A stretch of 64,000 nt of DNA, taken from Armatimonadota bacterium (GTDB lineage: Bacteria; Armatimonadota; DTGP01; JAKQQT01). This document shows, in pieces, positions 52,068 through 62,183 of the stretch. The position numbers and the translations under genes are program-made. The notes under the pieces are model-generated. The model was not told where the DNA came from. It made no database searches and saw nothing but the letters and a program-made list of their open reading frames with translations. Position 1 is the first letter of the stretch, and each line of letters opens with the position of its first letter. The DNA lies in assembly GCA_036504095.1 (NCBI GenBank), contig DASXVS010000043.1, positions 1-64,000 of the forward strand, written 5' to 3'.

Positions 52068-52114
52068 GAGGAGCGATGAACGGTGAATCCTGCATTCATC
52101 GTTCATCGCTCCTC
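52068..52114. terminator. 21-bp hairpin beside the aspS remnant
   Basis: Left arm 52,068-52,088, loop CCTGC, right arm 52,094-52,114, 20 of 21 pairs. It contains GATGAACG units of the heptamer family and lies just past the stop codon of the aspS 3' remnant, so it looks like the former aspS terminator. Confidence 0.75.
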
Positions 52115-52211
52115 GTTCATCGTTTCCGCCCCCTCAGCCCTCTTCGGGCGGCATCACAATGCTCAGGTGCAGTTCGTCCAGTTGCGCCTGGTCCACCGGG
52201 CTGGGCGCGCC
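52096..52211. repeat. Direct repeat bounding the island (left copy)
   Basis: Consists of the shared 20-mer, a short variable TCAGCCC-type stretch and the aspS 3' remnant. The right copy spans 57,423-57,535. Both have the same orientation. It resembles an att-like duplication made by insertion into a gene 3' end. Confidence 0.75.
52134..52211 (-). pseudogene. aspS: Detached 3' end of aspS (last 25 codons plus stop)
   Basis: Minus-strand translation gives [16 protein letters not shown] then SIVMPPEEG and a stop codon, against [16 protein letters not shown] then DVVMSPEEG in the intact gene at 57,458. By hand alignment 68 of 78 bases match. Homology ends sharply at the first G codon. The flanking 20-mer TCATCGTTCATCGCTCCTCG is also shared (52,096-52,115 and 57,423-57,442). 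This is one boundary of the island. Confidence 0.88.
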
Positions 52212-52242
52212 GCGTTTATGAACGCAATCAGTATATCTGATA

Positions 52243-52280
52243 TGTCAAATAGTTGACAAGCAGGCGGGGGGGGGTATAAT
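52243..52280 (+). promoter_or_regulatory. Consensus promoter with G9 spacer and palindrome over the -35
   Basis: TTGACA (52,253-52,258), 16-bp spacer, TATAAT (52,275-52,280). The spacer contains nine consecutive G (52,266-52,274) abutting the -10. TGTCAA-ATAG-TTGACA (52,243-52,258) is a perfect inverted repeat that includes the -35. Change in the G-tract length would move the spacing through 15, 16, 17 or 18 bp. Predicted start of transcription is near 52,287. Confidence 0.85.
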
Positions 52281-52362
52281 TCATATGAGCCAAACTCTTC
52301 TCGCGCGAAGTGACCACCAAGACACGCCACCGAGCGCCATGCTGTTCGCGAGGAGGTACGTC

Positions 52363-53568
52363 ATGCAGTCTCGCTTGGGCCGTTTCGCGGCCCTCTCCCT
52401 TCCCCTTCTGTTCGTCTGCCCCGTCCGCGCGCAATCCGTTGACCCCACAGTCGTAGCGGCGGATACCGCGTATACGGCTAAACGGTATGCGGAGGCCATA
52501 CCGCTCTACCAGCAGGTCGTCGCATCGAAACTGCCCGACGGTGTTCGGGCGCGCGCTCAGTTTCAGATCGGCTGGTCTTACTACAACTTGGACAACCGGA
52601 AGCAGGCGCAAGCCGAATGGGTGGCTGCGGCCGACAAGTTTCCCACCCAAGCTTCTTACGCGTGCAACTCTCTGCTTCGAGCAGGAAACAGTGCTGTTGG
52701 CGCTAAGGACTACACTTCGGCCGCGACATATTACCAGCGGGCTGCCGACACCTACACAACGGCGGCGGAAGCTCGCGAATTCGCGATTCAGGCTCGCTGT
52801 TGGCTCGGCAACGTCCACCTCAGAATGGCGGAACAGACCAAGCTCAGGGAATCCCGGACCGCCCTTGCCACGGGATCGGTCACAACCGGCGAGGAAATCT
52901 GGAAGCAGGCCGCGCCTGACTTTCACGCTGCGGAGGATGCATACTCGCGCGTGCTGAAGGACTTTCCTGAAGCGGGAATACTCCGCGCAGAAGCCGAAAT
53001 GTTGCTTGTATCGCTGAAACTGGAATATGCGATTTACGGACAAGGCAACTCTTTTGAAGACGTGATCGCGGCTGCGGGCGCTTTCTTATCGAAGTGGCCG
53101 GACGACTCCACGCGATGTCCCACGGTCCTGATGATGCGGGCCGAATCATGCTTCTGCATGCGGCGGTACGACGCTTCCATTGCCGACATCACTACCATTC
53201 AAACGACGTATGCGGCTACGGCGAAAGAGTCCCTCGGAACATCGCAGTTCTACATGGCCCGTTGCTATGAGGACATGCATGATTGGGCGCGAGCCCTGGC
53301 CGAGTACACCAACTACCTTGAACTGGCTGTCCCATCATTCAATGAACGCCTCCTGCATTCGCAAGCCCAGTTTTTTACGGGACATTGCCTCCGCGGATTG
53401 GGCAAAACCGCGGACGCTGCGGCAGCGTATCAGAAAGTCATAGATGACTATGCCGACTGTCCCATCGCGCGAAGCGCCGCGATATACCGTGACGATCTAG
53501 CGGCGGAACTCCAACGCGATGGGATTCTCCAACCCACTCTTGGCGCATCGGAGGGCTCGTCAAAATGA
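52363..53568 (+). CDS. Secreted TPR-type protein, first gene of island operon
   Basis: 401 residues from the ATG at 52,363, which has GAGGAGG 6 bases upstream. An in-frame ATG at 52,285 lies at the predicted transcription start and is rejected. Signal peptide MQSRLGRFAALSLPLLFVCPVRAQS. Repeated helix pairs of TPR type: DTAYTAKRYAEAIPLYQQVV, AQFQIGWSYYNLDNRKQAQAEW, KDYTSAATYYQRAA, FYMARCYEDMHDWARALAEY, HCLRGLGKTADAAAAYQKVI. Such proteins act as periplasmic scaffolds. Its stop codon overlaps the next ATG (ATGA). Confidence 0.75.
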   Translation: MQSRLGRFAALSLPLLFVCPVRAQSVDPTVVAADTAYTAKRYAEAIPLYQQVVASKLPDGVRARAQFQIGWSYYNLDNRKQAQAEWVAAADKFPTQASYACNSLLRAGNSAVGAKDYTSAATYYQRAADTYTTAAEAREFAIQARCWLGNVHLRMAEQTKLRESRTALATGSVTTGEEIWKQAAPDFHAAEDAYSRVLKDFPEAGILRAEAEMLLVSLKLEYAIYGQGNSFEDVIAAAGAFLSKWPDDSTRCPTVLMMRAESCFCMRRYDASIADITTIQTTYAATAKESLGTSQFYMARCYEDMHDWARALAEYTNYLELAVPSFNERLLHSQAQFFTGHCLRGLGKTADAAAAYQKVIDDYADCPIARSAAIYRDDLAAELQRDGILQPTLGASEGSSK

Positions 53569-55415
53569 CGCCACGTTATCTTTTCGGCTTCCTGCTCCTT
53601 ACAACGATCCCATCGTCCGCTCGTGCTGGTGCCAGCGGTCACTGGGAGTATCCGCCAACATACAATGCAGTTTACTGTCCGAGCACGACCTCCATCCCTC
53701 CCGGCGGCAAGATCGTCTTTCGGGCTAGAAAGGACTCGTGTTCGAGTGGCATTCCCGCCAAGGACTACGACACGTATTACGACATTTACAACCAAAAAGT
53801 GGATCCGCCGTTGCCGCAATCCACTGAAGATGAGACGTTTACGGTCACATGGCTTGTCAATGGCGTGGAGGTTGGAGCAGGCACGGACTACGAATGGACC
53901 GCTCCATGCGACCCCGGAACGTATTACGTGTCCTGGACGCTGTCGAACAATAGGGTTTACGGCGATCCAAGAAAAGATCCTCCGGTGACGGCCGCCCTCG
54001 GAAGCGTGACCGTGACAGCCTTACCATCTGTGAATATTGTGAGTCCAGGTTGCGAAGGTGAGTTTATAGCCGATGACCCAAACACCACCGAAGATGAGGC
54101 ACGGGTAAAGGCCTACGTCACAGTTCCGGCGGGTGACAGCGTCTCTTTAGTGCAGTTGTGGGTGGACGGATGGCCTGAGGCCGACATGCATTATGTTAGT
54201 GATGCTTCCGGGGGCTTCTGGATATACGAGTGGCCCTTACCGATGACCCTAACGGGCGATCACGTCTTAACGGTGATGGCTTACAATAGTCATAGTTGCA
54301 CAGGATCCACGTCGAGACACGCATTCCTCAACCCTGAAGTCCACACAGACACTATATCGTTTGCCGGATATTCGCTTTGGAATCGCGAGGACGGGGATGA
54401 ACCAATAGAGGCGCCACAGTGGCACGTTACGAACCAGACGTACACAAAACCTTTTGCCTATCAGGCGGGATCGGGCATATCACCGAGTGTCCAAATGGTT
54501 ACTACGAACGTACCAGGTTCAGTCTGGTCACGTTACAAAGTAAGGGGAACGTGGAAGAACTCGGCTGGATCCGTGATCGGAACGCCATATTCGACGACGG
54601 TGGACACGCCTTCTCCTGTCGCATTTCCGGCCTCGCTGGCGCACTCCACTACAGCACCCAACCTAGTTATGGACTACACGCTGGACCAGTCTTACGACTT
54701 CTATGTTCGCAAGTGCGATGATAGTGATTGGTGTTGGGCTGGAGCGACAAACACATCTCACCCTCAAGTGTTCTTAACATTTGGGGAGCCGCTTGGACCA
54801 TGGGGCACGAGCACTAACAATGGGCCGCGGTCATGCTGGACTAGCGTACTTAGTCTTGCATGCCAATGGATGCCTGAGACGGGGTATGCGAACCCCGGTG
54901 GGAAGTTGGATGCGCGAAAGAGAGTTGCAGATCAGGCATACAGCCAGGCGTGGACAACCTACACTGACCAAGGGACGAACTACGCGCGGGGAAATGACAC
55001 GTTCGATATGACCACCTTCATGTTGGGCAACACTTCCGATTGCCAGGACATGTCGTGCTGGTGGATCAAGGTTTGCAATAGCCTCGGGATGAATGGGCAG
55101 TTCGTTATCATTACGGGGGGCCAAGAGGGTCTGCGCACGCGACATATCCTTGCGGTCGGAAGGAGTACGTGGGGCGCCGAAGACTGGGGCTTCCATCAAG
55201 TCGGATGGTATAGCAACGTATTCGACGCTTGCCTGAAACTGAAATGGCCCCCGTACGGCCAAAACGATCCAAGCCGGGTGCCTCAAAACGAGGACCTCTA
55301 CGGGAATTATGAACGGGATTTCTGGGATCGTTACTACTACAACGAGGCAAGCTGGACGATACCGCAGTACGTGTACCCAATCAGCCTCCCTCATACTTTG
55401 GGCCAGGTGAAGTGA
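53565..55415 (+). CDS. Secreted protein with Ig-like domains and a candidate transglutaminase-like Cys/His/Asp core
   Basis: 616 residues. Signal peptide MTPRYLFGFLLLTTIPSSARA. Residues about 25-165 and 165-265 look like Ig-type sandwiches (FTVTWLVNGVEVGAG, VSLVQLWVDGWPEADMHYV), then another beta domain to about 420. The C-terminal part has DCQDMSCWWIKVCNSLGMNG, TRHILAVGR, FHQVGWYSNVFDACLKLKW: a Cys on a helix followed by His and Asp in the order used by transglutaminase-like cysteine hydrolases. That assignment is inferred by eye. GC is visibly lower than outside the island. Translationally coupled at both ends. Confidence 0.6.
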   Translation: MTPRYLFGFLLLTTIPSSARAGASGHWEYPPTYNAVYCPSTTSIPPGGKIVFRARKDSCSSGIPAKDYDTYYDIYNQKVDPPLPQSTEDETFTVTWLVNGVEVGAGTDYEWTAPCDPGTYYVSWTLSNNRVYGDPRKDPPVTAALGSVTVTALPSVNIVSPGCEGEFIADDPNTTEDEARVKAYVTVPAGDSVSLVQLWVDGWPEADMHYVSDASGGFWIYEWPLPMTLTGDHVLTVMAYNSHSCTGSTSRHAFLNPEVHTDTISFAGYSLWNREDGDEPIEAPQWHVTNQTYTKPFAYQAGSGISPSVQMVTTNVPGSVWSRYKVRGTWKNSAGSVIGTPYSTTVDTPSPVAFPASLAHSTTAPNLVMDYTLDQSYDFYVRKCDDSDWCWAGATNTSHPQVFLTFGEPLGPWGTSTNNGPRSCWTSVLSLACQWMPETGYANPGGKLDARKRVADQAYSQAWTTYTDQGTNYARGNDTFDMTTFMLGNTSDCQDMSCWWIKVCNSLGMNGQFVIITGGQEGLRTRHILAVGRSTWGAEDWGFHQVGWYSNVFDACLKLKWPPYGQNDPSRVPQNEDLYGNYERDFWDRYYYNEASWTIPQYVYPISLPHTLGQVK

Positions 55416-55416
55416 A

Positions 55417-56472
55417 ATGAATGGACTAAAGAAAAGAGTCTGGGTTTGTGTGGTTGTGGCTGGCACGGCATTGGCTGCTGTGACGCTGGTTTGCGGTGGT
55501 ACATTCGTGGCGGCTGCGCCTCCTCCCAACTGGAGTGTATTTGGCGCGTTACTCCTCGGGCGCGATGAGCTTCCTTGGGATTGCATGCTAGACGCAGTCG
55601 AGTCAGGTTCTACTGTGCATTCAGCCTGCTTCGCATCGCTGCCCGCTACCCAAGTCGTTCACGAGGGCTGGCGCACCGTACCTGCCAGCAACGGTCGCGC
55701 CGAGAATCAGATTCAGATATCAATCGCATGTGCGTCTACGCGTGAGGATGCCGTTAGTGGAGTTGAGGCGGAACTCAAGACCGTGCCAGCCATCATACCG
55801 GAAGTGACTGGTGAGCCTTATTTGTTACCGTTTGCGGACCGTGCCTGGACGAAACACTCCGCGAGTAACGTCGCGACGGAAAAATTCGCACGCGTGCTGT
55901 TCGTAAGGGGTACCATTGCGGTGTCGGTCTCGGTATACAGCGGTAAGGGCTTCGCTGGTCGTTATGCAGTTGAGCTTTCGACCCGTCTTGGGACGCGGAT
56001 TGATAGGTATTCTAGCAACAAGCAACTGCCGTGTGGTGAGTTTCCCGTATCGGCGGCGGATATGGCCTGCAATCCGTTCGTCACTTGGCAAGCCACTCAT
56101 GTGCCTGCACCTAGCGGAACGGTTGGGGCGGCCATCGCGATGAAGGCGGGAAACGGTCTGCCCCGTCTGGTAGCCGCATTCAAGACCGGCTCGGGTGAGT
56201 TGATTGTTCCGTTGCGCCAGCTACTCGGCGTAGCACAGCCGGGCACATACGTCAAGACTGGTGTTGGAAGGGTCTCCTTCACCGCTGCCGGGAAGGCTGT
56301 GGTGCTGGGCGCCACGCGGGCAGGTACCGTAGATGGCGCAGCCGTTAATCTACGGGCGGCTCCAATTCTACAGGGCAAGGAACTGATCGTGCCGGTGACC
56401 ATGCTCGAAGATGTCCTCGGCCGGAAGGTGACTTGGTCGACGCTCAACAAGATGCCTCTTGCGAAGATGTAG
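55417..56472 (+). CDS. Secreted protein with copper-amine-oxidase-type stalk domain
   Basis: 351 residues, starting one base after the previous stop codon. An N-terminal hydrophobic segment (about 8-34) is a signal peptide or anchor. Residues about 35-215 are unassigned. Residues about 240-350 resemble the Cu_amine_oxidN1 (PF07833) stalk: LIVPLRQLLGVAQPG, VSFTAAGKAVVLGATRAG, then LQGKELIVPVTMLEDVLGRKV. Third gene of the island operon; probable cell-surface protein. Confidence 0.65.
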   Translation: MNGLKKRVWVCVVVAGTALAAVTLVCGGTFVAAAPPPNWSVFGALLLGRDELPWDCMLDAVESGSTVHSACFASLPATQVVHEGWRTVPASNGRAENQIQISIACASTREDAVSGVEAELKTVPAIIPEVTGEPYLLPFADRAWTKHSASNVATEKFARVLFVRGTIAVSVSVYSGKGFAGRYAVELSTRLGTRIDRYSSNKQLPCGEFPVSAADMACNPFVTWQATHVPAPSGTVGAAIAMKAGNGLPRLVAAFKTGSGELIVPLRQLLGVAQPGTYVKTGVGRVSFTAAGKAVVLGATRAGTVDGAAVNLRAAPILQGKELIVPVTMLEDVLGRKVTWSTLNKMPLAKM

Positions 56473-56544: not shown

Positions 56545-57426
56545 CTACTTTGAAAACACAATGAACGCGTGCGGCACCGGCCGGATGCGCGGCGGATTCC
56601 CAGTGCTTACAGCTGCTGCGGCTCGGCCCTTCCACATAAGGCAGGTGCTCAGACCCGAGTCCAGAAGCACTCCTTGCACCGCGCCAACCTTGGCCATTGC
56701 CTCCGCGAACCTGAAGCTGCTGACCTCCTCGCGTGTGGCGAACAATAGCATTCGGCCAGCGGCGTCCACGCCGACTGCGGCCCGTGGTCGGAAGTCCATG
56801 GCGGTGGAAACGAACGTGTGGCGAATAGTCGGAACATCGGATACCTTCCCGTTTCGAACGAGCCAGCCGCCGCCGACAAAGGCATCCTGAACGTCCGGGA
56901 CGAGGCTCCGCAATACCTTGATACTCGTTCCCATATCCGGTTCGAACGGCATTATCCTCAGTGATTTGGTGCCTAACAACACTATCGGCCGGCCGGAGCA
57001 CTTCAGGTTGACGTACAGATGCGAAGGCGCATAACGCTTCCCGCTGCCGCTCAACGCGGGCCCCACGATGTTGTTCCGCGCGTCGAAGAATGTTCCGTTC
57101 AGACCGCCGATCCCATCCACCATTTTCACCCACGAAGCGACCGATCTGTTTAGTGGCCCAAACGCAGTACGTACTCGGCCTCCCCTGATGAGTGTGTAAC
57201 GGTAGCCCTGAATCGTGACCCTTTCGAAGCGCGGCGGTGGGAAAACGAGTCGGACGATGCTTGCTTGGGAGGGGGAGATAGGTGCTTGGTCGTCACCCTT
57301 TTCAGGAGCCTTGGACCCCGCGGTGGCGGACAGCACAGCACAAGGGACGGAAGCTGCGGCAAGGACCAGCACAGTCGCGCGGGAAGCGGTGAACGATGAG
57401 TAAAATCGGCGCAAAGCTATCGTCAT
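56545..57426 (-). CDS. NAGPA-type phosphodiester glycosidase domain protein
   Basis: 293 residues with an N-terminal signal or anchor (SRATVLVLAAASVPCAVLSA). The core carries GIGGLNGTFFD, RAAVGVDAAGRMLLFATREEVSSF-type segment, EAMAKVGAVQGVLLDSGLST and a C-terminal RPVPHAFIVF: the NAGPA/DUF2233 fold of phosphodiester-alpha-GlcNAcase-like proteins, often linked to exopolysaccharide. Its ATG lies inside the aspS terminator flank, so the gene begins right at the island edge and uses sequence from the direct repeat. Confidence 0.8.
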   Translation of the reverse strand: MTIALRRFYSSFTASRATVLVLAAASVPCAVLSATAGSKAPEKGDDQAPISPSQASIVRLVFPPPRFERVTIQGYRYTLIRGGRVRTAFGPLNRSVASWVKMVDGIGGLNGTFFDARNNIVGPALSGSGKRYAPSHLYVNLKCSGRPIVLLGTKSLRIMPFEPDMGTSIKVLRSLVPDVQDAFVGGGWLVRNGKVSDVPTIRHTFVSTAMDFRPRAAVGVDAAGRMLLFATREEVSSFRFAEAMAKVGAVQGVLLDSGLSTCLMWKGRAAAAVSTGNPPRIRPVPHAFIVFSK

Positions 57427-57535
57427 CGTTCATCGCTCCTCGCTCAGCCCTTGCCCCTCAGCCCTCTTCTGGTGACATCACCACGTCCAGGTGCAGTTCG
57501 TCCAGTTGCGCCTGGTCCACGGGGCTTGGGGCGCC
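57423..57535. repeat. Direct repeat bounding the island (right copy, in intact aspS)
   Basis: Contains the shared 20-mer (57,423-57,442) and the last 26 codons of the functional aspS. TGAACGATGA (57,398-57,407) just outside pairs with TCATCGTTCA (57,423-57,432), re-creating a terminator stem. Confidence 0.75.
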
Positions 57536-59242
57536 GGTCATGGGGTCCTGGCCGGTGGTGGTCTTCGGGAAGGCGATGACCTCGCGGATGTTGTCCGTGT
57601 CCAGCAGCTTCATGATCAGGCGGTCGATGCCTGGTGCGATACCGCCGTGGGGCGGCGCGCCATACTGGAACGCCTCGATGATGTGGCCGAACCGCTCCTG
57701 AATGGACGTGTCGTCGTAGCCCATCAGGTCGAAGATCTTCTTCTGGATGTCACTGCGGTGGATCCGGATGCTGCCGCTGGCCATTTCGGCGCCGTTGCAC
57801 ACCAGGTCGTAGGCGTTGGCGCGCGCCTTGCCGGGGTCTTCGTCCAGCCAGTGCACGTCCTCGTCCTTCACGCTGGTGAATGGGTGGTGCTCGGCGTCCC
57901 AGCGCTGGGTGGCCTCGTCCCAGTTGAACATCGGGAAGTCCACCACCCAGGCGAACATCATCTGGTCCGGGTCCATCAGGTCCTTGCGCCGGCCGACCTC
58001 GAGGCGCAGCGCGCCCAGCGTCTTCGCGACGACGGCCTTCGAGTCCGCGACCACGAACACGCTGTCGCCGATCTCGGCGCCGGCGGCGATGCGGATATTC
58101 TCCAGGTGTTCCACTGTCACGAATTTGAGCATACCGGACGACGGCGTCTTGACCCCTTCCGCCGTGTACGCCAGCGAGACGAGGCCCTTTGCGCCCTGGG
58201 ACTTGGCGAAATCCGTCAGGCGGTCGATATCGGCCCGGCCGATGCTCGCGCCGCCCGGGTAGCGCAGCGCCTGGATGCGCCCGCCGGACTCCAGCGTGCC
58301 GTCGAACACTCGGAACCCGCAGCCGCGAAGGATGTCGCCGATGTCCACCAGTTCGAGGCCGAACCGGAGATCCGGCTTGTCGCTGCCGTACTTGTCCAAC
58401 GCCTCGGCGTGGGTCAGCCGCAGGAAGGGGCTGTTGATCTTCTTCTCGCTGACCGCCGGGATCATCTCGGTGTACAGGCCCTCGATGATGCTGAGAACAT
58501 CCTCCTGCGTTGCGAATGACATCTCGAGGTCCAACTGTGTGAACTCCGGTTGGCGGTCGGCGCGCGGATCTTCATCGCGGAAGCACTTGGCGATCTGGAA
58601 ATAGCGCTCGAAGCCGGCGACCATCAGTAGCTGCTTCATCTGTTGCGGCGACTGTGGCAGCGCATAAAAATGGCCGGCATAGAGGCGCGACGGCACGAGG
58701 TAGTCGCGCGCGCCTTCCGGCGTGCTCTTGATGAGGATGGGCGTCTCGACTTCGATGAAGTCGCGCTCGCAGAGGTAGTCCCGCATGAACTTGATGACCT
58801 TGTGGCGAAGGAGCATGTTGCGATACATGGACGCGCGGCGCAGGTCGAGGTACCTGTATTTGAGGCGGAGGATTTCGTCGCTGGTGGTATCGTCCGCGAT
58901 GGGGAACGGCGGCGTCTTGGCGGGGTTGAGAATCTCGACCTTCGACGCGACGATCTCCACCTCGCCGGTTGGCATATTGGGGTTCACGTTTTCGGGCTCG
59001 CGCGCGATGACGGTGCCGGTCACGCTCATCACGTACTCGGGCCGGGCTTCGTCCGCAGCGTTCCGCGCGTCGGCCTGTTCCTCGTGCGCCACGGTCTGTA
59101 CCAGCCCCGTGCGGTCACGCAGGTCGATGAAAATGACTCCCCCGTGGTCCCGGCGCTTCTGCACCCAGCCATTGACCGTCACGGTCTGGCCGATGTGTTC
59201 CAGCCGCAATTCGCCACACCAAATCGTTCGTTGAGTGTACAT
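57458..59242 (-). CDS. aspS: Aspartyl-tRNA synthetase (AspRS)
   Basis: 594 residues, normal bacterial length. Class IIb: an N-terminal OB-fold anticodon domain ([21 protein letters not shown]), motif 1 region, motif 2 in [18 protein letters not shown], the bacterial GAD insertion domain (about 300-410) and motif 3 [12 protein letters not shown]. Whether it is discriminating or charges tRNA-Asn too cannot be judged safely here. hisS lies directly upstream. Its last 25 codons are duplicated at 52,134. Confidence 0.96.
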
Positions 59243-60757: not shown

Positions 60758-61123
60758 TCATTCGCCGGGGCGAGTCCGCTTGTCTTTAGTTTTCTTGCGC
60801 CTGTCCAGGTACACGTCAAGCCGCACAATGACAAACATCCCTGCGGCGAATGTTGCGAGGTCGATCGCTAGGCGCGGCAGGAACGGAATCGGCGGGTTAT
60901 GCGAACCGAATTCGGATCCCGAACCGACGAACGCGAGAATCCACCACAGGTAAAGAAGACCCGGAAACGAAAGGAAGACGCGTAGGGAAGGGCTGTTTCG
61001 AGTACGTGGCAAAGCGAAGCACAAGAGAAGAACAAACAGCAACATTGACGTCGCCGTGAGTAGGTTGAGGATCGAAAATCTGTCGGCCCACCGCTCCGCA
61101 ATCATGCGCATCATCGAAGACAC
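60758..61123 (-). CDS. Small membrane protein, copy A of a tandem duplication
   Basis: 121 residues. Hydrophobic stretches at about 20-40, 50-68 and 85-103 suggest three TM helices; the C-terminus is basic (DRRKKTKDKR). It is paralogous to the next gene: both start M(R)MIAERWADRF / MHVIADRWAEFF and share SGSEFGSHNPPIPF / SSGREFRNHHPGIAL. No family recognised. Confidence 0.6.
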   Translation of the reverse strand: MSSMMRMIAERWADRFSILNLLTATSMLLFVLLLCFALPRTRNSPSLRVFLSFPGLLYLWWILAFVGSGSEFGSHNPPIPFLPRLAIDLATFAAGMFVIVRLDVYLDRRKKTKDKRTRPGE

Positions 61124-61203
61124 CCCCTAACATCGAGACCGCTGGAAAGCAACCGTTAAGTAGAGTATGCCCTCGGACGCGGGAGCCGCACCATATCGGA
61201 CCC

Positions 61204-61322
61204 ACTGAATGAATTCAGTGGCTGACCGGCGAATGTCGGCTAAAGCCGACTCCCGCCCGCCGCAAATGTCGGCTTCAGCCGACATTATGGCAGGCAGCCA
61301 TCGATTTCAGTCGGTGGCGTGG
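61204..61322. repeat. REP-like element, copy 1
   Basis: About 119 bp: CACTGAAT-GA-ATTCAGTG, then GTCGGCT-AAA-GCCGAC and TGTCGGCTTCAGCCGACA, ending CAGTCGGTGGCGTGG. Copy 2 at 61,793-61,912 has the same order of palindromes. Confidence 0.85.
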
Positions 61323-61324
61323 TG

Positions 61325-61678
61325 TCAGTGTTGCGGCGCCTTTGCGCTGGTTCTACCGGTGAATTTGGCTACGGTGAGCGAGATCAGGCTGATGACGACA
61401 AGGCCGGATATAAGGAAACACAGGTTGACCGCCAGACCCATCCAGAGTGCAATCCCGGGGTGGTGATTTCGGAATTCCCGTCCCGAACTAAGGCAGGCGA
61501 ACATCCACAGCCACAAGACGAGTAGCGTTGGGGTAAGAAGAACACGGAGATATCGAGTCGGGCGCAAACTCGACAACAGGCCAATCGCCAGGATCAAGCA
61601 AAGCCATTCGAGAATCGCGTCGACCACACTGCTGACAGCGAAGAACTCCGCCCACCGGTCCGCAATGACATGCATCAT
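61325..61678 (-). CDS. Small membrane protein, copy B of a tandem duplication
   Basis: 117 residues, three or four predicted TM helices (about 20-40, 48-65, 80-105). Aligns with copy A over the N-terminus and the middle loop. The upstream spacer is shared too: TGGAAAGCAAGCGTCAAGTA here and TGGAAAGCAACCGTTAAGTA before copy A. The duplication unit therefore includes leader and REP element. Confidence 0.6.
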   Translation of the reverse strand: MMHVIADRWAEFFAVSSVVDAILEWLCLILAIGLLSSLRPTRYLRVLLTPTLLVLWLWMFACLSSGREFRNHHPGIALWMGLAVNLCFLISGLVVISLISLTVAKFTGRTSAKAPQH

Positions 61679-61792
61679 CGAAGTAACCCTCTACACCGGT
61701 ACCGTTGGAAAGCAAGCGTCAAGTAGAGTATATCTCCCGCACCCGCGATTCGCGCCACACACGCTGCAAACTGCTGAGGCTTCCCCGGCCCA

Positions 61793-61912
61793 CTGAATGA
61801 ATTCAGTGGCTGACCCGCGCAATGTCGGCTGAAGCCGACTCCCGCCCATCGCTAGCGTCGGCTTCAGCCGACATGGTGGCAGGCAGCCATCGACTTCAGT
61901 CGGTGGCCTGGC
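61793..61912. repeat. REP-like element, copy 2
   Basis: Same sequence of palindromes as 61,204-61,322 (CACTGAATGAATTCAGTG, AATGTCGGCTGAAGCCGACT, GTCGGCTTCAGCCGACA). It overlaps the 3' end of the neighbouring hypothetical gene, supplying its last codons. Confidence 0.85.
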
Positions 61913-62183
61913 GCGCCGGCGAGTGTTCCGCGGCAGGTTGCGCATATCTTTCCCGCACCCGCGTTTCGCACCACGCCTTCTGCGAACGGCTGAGGCTTCC
62001 ACGGCGGTCGATTTGATCGAGGATACGAAGCGCGAAATCGAGCTTGGTGCCCTCTTCAGCCTCTTCGTCGAACCAGGCGGTCATGTCCTCGATGTAGGAC
62101 ATTGCGGATTCGCATTCGCGCAGGTCATCCGGGGTCAGGTCCGTATTCATAGCATGCGTGAAGGCCCGCCACTGAACGACCAT
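61896..62183 (-). CDS. Hypothetical acidic helical protein
   Basis: 95 residues, or 84 from the ATG at 62,150. LRECESAMSYIEDMTAWFDEEAEEGTKLDFALRILDQI and SLSRSQKAWCETRVRERYA suggest a short helical protein. No family recognised. Its 3' end runs into REP copy 2. A fragment similar to its SLSRSQKAWCETRVRE codons is repeated at about 61,740-61,790. Confidence 0.5.
   Translation of the reverse strand: MVVQWRAFTHAMNTDLTPDDLRECESAMSYIEDMTAWFDEEAEEGTKLDFALRILDQIDRRGSLSRSQKAWCETRVRERYAQPAAEHSPARQATD

Follow-up and report, generated by a model that had tools for sequence, protein, structure and literature searches.

A candidate phase-variable promoter with a poly-G spacer, carried by a dispersed promoter-to-signal-peptide module in an Armatimonadota genome

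A promoter with a run of nine G between its -35 and -10 elements is located in front of three genes in a 64,000-nucleotide stretch of Armatimonadota DNA (the whole stretch being referred to as the window). Is the length of this G run a switch, or is the run an incidental part of an ordinary promoter? An earlier note on this DNA had proposed a phase-variable promoter, and this proposal was followed up by computational analysis of the window, of the 4.68-Mb genome to which it belongs, and of other genomes of the phylum and beyond.

The promoter and its operon

The elements of the promoter and the leader are as follows.

52236..52434, + strand: shared module of promoter, 5' leader and signal-peptide coding sequence, with bounds taken from its alignment to the contig C7 copy
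52243..52258, no strand: TGTCAA-N4-TTGACA dyad overlapping the -35, perfect in the window copy only
52253..52258, + strand: -35 element TTGACA, invariant across the six tract-bearing copies
52266..52274, + strand: G9 tract, presumably the hypermutable portion of the spacer (16 bp); its length in paralogs ranges over G7-G12
52275..52280, + strand: -10 element TATAAT; TAGAAT, GACAAT or CACAGT in paralogs
52287..52362, + strand: predicted 5' untranslated leader, strongly conserved in sequence, without hairpin support
52351..52356, + strand: Shine-Dalgarno sequence AGGAGG, invariant across the six tract-bearing copies

The exact TTGACA and TATAAT and the 16-bp spacer ending in G9, all described earlier, were confirmed by direct reading of the window sequence: the spacer occupies 52259-52274 (AGCAGGCGGGGGGGGG, i.e. 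AGCAGGC plus G9) and is closed by the tract, which the -10 adjoins directly. This G9 is the sole G run of at least 8 within the 64-kb window. By searching the genome for exact TTGACA-N14..19-TATAAT, a total of seven sites were identified as against none for the reversed pattern, and the seven are therefore very probably real promoters; the window site alone among them contains a G tract and a 16-bp spacer. Transcription should start near 52287, about 7 nt past the -10, and the start codon of gene 1 is the ATG at 52363, downstream of AGGAGG. Another ATG at 52285 was ruled out as the start, because the -10 is too near and the frame is closed in the paralogs C46 and C7.

The genes downstream and the surrounding repeats are the following.

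52096..52212, no strand: left copy of the duplicated aspS 3' end with the adjoining repeat
52363..53568, + strand: gene 1, predicted secreted TPR-repeat protein of 401 aa, its signal peptide common to the paralogs
53565..55415, + strand: gene 2, protein of 616 aa with a signal-peptide-like N-terminus, without confident family
55417..56472, + strand: gene 3, predicted secreted protein of 351 aa with a weak copper-amine-oxidase N-terminal-like domain
56545..57426, - strand: convergent gene for a phosphodiester glycosidase (NAGPA) domain protein, outside the operon
57423..57536, no strand: right copy, the 3' end of the intact aspS gene, bracketing the low-G+C segment together with the left copy

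Based on the tight packing of the three genes and the signal-peptide-like N-termini of all three products, the earlier description as an operon of three secreted proteins holds as a prediction. Gene 2 has no relatives among 60 related genomes and no confident match in PDB, Pfam or NCBIfam, and structure prediction of its C-terminal part gave a pLDDT of 31. The location on an island, also claimed earlier, is plausible: the G+C content is lowered across the operon and the convergent phosphodiester-glycosidase gene (54-59%, as against 62-66% in the flanking sequence), and on either side of this segment there is one copy of a 117-bp direct repeat containing the aspS 3' end, the copies being 85% identical. 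Both copies retain the in-frame C-terminus and the stop codon, and recombination between them would excise the 5.3-kb island, leaving aspS intact.

Other repeats were observed as well. A 21-bp inverted repeat at 52068-52114 of the window (GAGGAGCGATGAACGGTGAAT / ATTCATCGTTCATCGCTCCTC) is related to the GATGAACGATGA-type repeat beside aspS (57423-57441). A dispersed repeat is present at 61083-61322 and 61647-62005 of the window and at L107:5383-5925, the sequences being 75-94% identical; in L107, on contig C64, it is a tandem unit of about 139 bp.

Copies of the module in the same genome

Upon search of the genome for G runs of at least nine, 14 tracts were identified, and three of them were located in near-identical sequences clearly related to the window promoter. 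By subsequent DNA and model searches, a total of seven module copies were identified, of which six carry a G tract between TTGACA and the -10, and one (C53) is without the tract; an eighth match (C64:1-38) was left out of the count, being the overlapping contig end of copy C67a. The window module is 83% identical to the C7 copy by blastn over 199-203 bp, and 79-82% identical to those on C46 and C67. The similarity covers about 200 bp, from the promoter through the signal peptide, and breaks off on both sides, and the stretch upstream of the -35 is also conserved within the module. The mature proteins encoded behind the copies differ, including TPR proteins, a PKD-like protein, a HEAT-repeat protein and unknowns. 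The module is absent from 290 other genomes of the phylum, and a search of 85,000 species genomes with the leader pattern gave seven chance matches, none of them with TTGACA and a G tract upstream. The six tract-bearing promoters are listed below.

Window copy: G9, spacer 16 bp, -10 TATAAT
Copy C46: G8, spacer 15 bp, -10 GACAAT
Copy C7: TTGACA-N10-G7, the G7 following AATAGGCACC, spacer 17 bp, -10 TAGAAT
Copy C67a: G12, spacer 19 bp, -10 CACAGT
Copies C67b and C22: G11 each, spacer 18 bp, -10 CACAGT

In the window copy (TTGACA-AGCAGGC-G9-TATAAT) and in C7 the homopolymer lies between an intact -35 and an intact -10, and the -10 is poor (CACAGT) in three paralogs, C67a, C67b and C22. Within one genome the spacers thus measure 15, 16, 17, 18, 18 and 19 bp, on and off the 16-18-bp optimum, and this distribution is what would be expected as a snapshot of independent switches. 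Between C67a and C67b the tract differs (G12 versus G11), and all of 45 flanking bases upstream and 44 of 45 downstream are identical.

These copies bear on two other proposals for the same sequence. The palindrome pointed out earlier is present as TGTCAA-ATAG-TTGACA, the next best site in the window having two mismatches. The repressor that was supposed to act on it as a second control did not gain from the comparison: the perfect dyad is found in one of the six tract-bearing copies, the other five having TATCAA or TATCGA in place of TGTCAA, so that the second base pair is broken in five of six. The interpretation as an operator is thus a weak one, a less stringent operator being conceivable. 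A structured leader RNA was rejected, because the predicted fold is weaker than those of shuffled sequences (z +1.5), compensatory changes are absent and Rfam gave no match.

The C67a and C67b copies are about 99% identical from promoter to signal peptide and about 75% identical in the mature coding sequence, a difference suggesting that the copies of the module have been homogenised, probably through gene conversion. In addition, the loci C22 (L043) and C53 (L090) share flanks of 90-93% identity, with the galU 5' end on one side, and contain different genes inside; this seems to be a second locus where operons of the family are exchanged, or else a strain variant in the assembly. Taken together with the aspS repeats bracketing the window operon, it suggests that the module operons sit at sites of duplication and replacement. 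Both pairs of loci would also fit the view that a duplicating module, kept alike by gene conversion, is what matters and that the G tract is its by-product, a view that is nevertheless quite improbable, since other genera of the phylum have poly-G promoters that are unrelated and keep the tract in the absence of the module (see below), and since gene conversion and tract switching are compatible with each other. Contig C67 also contains, at L091 4397-5018, a tandem array with units of about 100 bp that are about 80% alike.

Long G runs and poly-G spacers in the phylum

Run-length statistics were obtained from a 464-kb sample and the whole-genome search for G9. G runs of at least 9 were seen 14 times as against about 7-15 expected, indicating that a length of 9 alone is unremarkable. 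Runs of at least 11 were seen seven times as against 0.3-0.9 expected by extrapolation from shorter runs, the assembled lengths for runs of 11-16 G being possibly off by one. Three of these seven are in promoter copies of the module and three are in or beside the starts of signal-peptide genes, so that at the genome level long tracts are in excess at control points.

The latter three read as poly-C tracts. A C13 at C56:557-569 (L047) is in frame inside signal-peptide coding sequence, a C11 at C72:4815-4825 (L050) is in frame in or beside such sequence, and a C12 at C7:44941-44952 (L110:6942-6953) is near the start of an RHS-repeat gene and out of frame as assembled. These tracts look like candidate translational switches or contingency loci.

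Of 291 genomes searched in the phylum, 27 (from 22 genera) contain the pattern TTGACA-N3..12-G7-TANNNT, with 43 matches in total as against two for the reversed control. The spacer was 14-19 bp in all 43 and 10-13 bp in none, although the pattern allowed the shorter spacers too and about 37% of matches were expected there by chance; exact TATAAT was present in eight of the 43. In 287 genomes from the family to which a Lysobacter genome belongs, the same pattern gave six matches and none when reversed, and the genomes with the pattern numbered 27 in the phylum versus six in this family (Fisher p 0.0002). This comparison suggests that the poly-G spacer design reaches beyond the phylum, yet is commoner within it. 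By a simple score, signal-peptide-like N-termini were found downstream in 19 of 28 cases versus 64 of 314 background ORFs. For this comparison the starts were selected by their match to a Shine-Dalgarno sequence, except for one placed manually, and a few of the entries are paralogs.

An origin of the window promoter by chance or as an assembly artefact might be argued from the ordinary frequency of 9-G runs in the genome, but is already contradicted by the seven module copies and by the 43 versus two matches in the phylum, and its probability is practically negligible. A real but non-switching promoter, in which the G tract is tolerated and the lengths reflect slow divergence since duplication, would be another explanation: C46 and C7 differ by substitutions as well as in tract length, and spacers of 15-18 bp can all sustain some transcription. 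This explanation is nonetheless unlikely, because the tract changes while its flanks do not, as in C67a/b, in three copies in the relative G290 (G10, G11 and G14 with 0-1 flank mismatches) and in two copies in the relative G043 (G11 and G10 with 1/45 upstream mismatch), and because long G runs are in excess and the design recurs strongly in the phylum.

Two further features were observed among the relatives. At L150, L152, L154, L156 and L173, relatives of family f13, the -10 of the poly-G promoter is about 6 nt before the ATG, which suggests leaderless transcripts of secreted proteins. At L125-L127 (G290) and L130-L133 (G272, G273), a shared GTGAGTAGTTAC motif is located 40-60 nt past the poly-G promoter and is followed by divergence; this boundary resembles the border of a further copied module.

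Tract-length switching and known systems

The anatomy of the promoter, its paralogous copies, their differences in tract length and the phylum-wide enrichment with promoter-compatible spacing are direct observations on the DNA. The phase-variable promoter proposed earlier is now supported by five tract-bearing paralogs with other tract lengths, by tract changes between near-identical copies and by the excess of 43 over two matches with sigma70-compatible spacing. Phase variation is thus a well supported reading of these sequences, and that the window promoter is phase-variable through the G-tract length of its spacer, as one locus of a set sharing the module, is given a probability of about 0.8. 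The promoter would be of sigma70 type, its strength being set by the length of the slippage-prone G tract between -35 and -10. Gain or loss of Gs by slipped-strand replication would shift the spacer onto or off the 17-bp optimum, G9 in the window giving 16 bp and G10 giving 17 bp, and the genes are probably switched up and down at random in this way. The operon for three exported proteins would then be expressed at different levels in different cells. Copying would have placed the module of promoter, leader and signal peptide ahead of several operons for secreted proteins, and the tract length would be particular to each of them. Slippage within the population, its effect on transcription, the export of the products and the benefit are what we infer from these arrangements.

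The mechanism has precedents. In porA and fetA of Neisseria meningitidis, a homopolymer lies between -35 and -10 and the number of G sets the spacer around the 17-bp optimum (PMC2791445, PMC7864442); for the Neisseria precedent invoked earlier, porA is the true match. The tract in the spacer and the 17-bp optimum are common to both systems, and the products are exported there and predicted to be secreted here. Whereas porA and fetA are single loci, one module recurs here at several loci whose products differ, and the phylum, in which switching is so far a prediction from sequence, is an unrelated one. In Treponema pallidum, tp0126 has a poly-G between -35 and -10 and is transcribed best when the total distance is 17, and several paralogous tpr genes each have a poly-G (PMC7864442). 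Poly-G tracts of varying length and several paralogs with a tract are thus shared with Treponema, but the tpr tracts are near the start site instead of in the spacer, and the tpr products are putative outer-membrane porins. A different arrangement is found in Neisseria opc and in Treponema tprL, where the poly-C or poly-G overlaps with a core element of the promoter and where an effect of spacing has been argued against (PMC7864442). The opc tract is likewise a homopolymer in the core promoter that controls the level of transcription, but it overlaps with the -35, and its effect is believed to be mediated by a regulator (PMC7864442), whereas the -35 is intact here.

The opc and tprL cases raise the alternative that the tract acts without spacing, through DNA shape, promoter opening or binding of a regulator, in line with which three of the copies here have a degenerate -10 and the module shows conservation upstream of the -35. 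This alternative is very doubtful, given that the spacer contains the tract, both hexamers are intact and the total spacing is 14-19 bp, in the window as well as in the 43 matches from the phylum. Control by spacer length is therefore the preferred reading.

With respect to the module, Mycoplasma vlp-type families are similar in having many copies with alike 5' regions (a promoter with a homopolymer tract and a signal peptide) and divergent mature parts. The vlp products form a lipoprotein surface coat and the tracts are poly-A, in contrast to the TPR, PKD-like and other secreted proteins and the poly-G here. Most known cases of phase variation through slipping tracts come from host-adapted pathogens, and a search of the available papers on Armatimonadota and phase variation found none linking the two.

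The mechanism itself is already known from porA/fetA and tp0126, and the new parts are the dispersed module and the phylum-wide spread. The sequence evidence suggests that the same design is used at many loci in one genome and over 22 genera of the phylum, none of which was linked to a known case in this analysis. A wider interpretation, which we favour only slightly, is that the phylum uses poly-G spacer promoters as bet-hedging for secreted proteins, and that in this genome a portable module carries the switch between operons, giving many states of the cell envelope by independent switches. If this is true, isolates or metagenome reads of the phylum could be used to ask why bacteria randomly diversify their secreted proteins, and the portable switch module would be a ready system for tests of spacer-length control.
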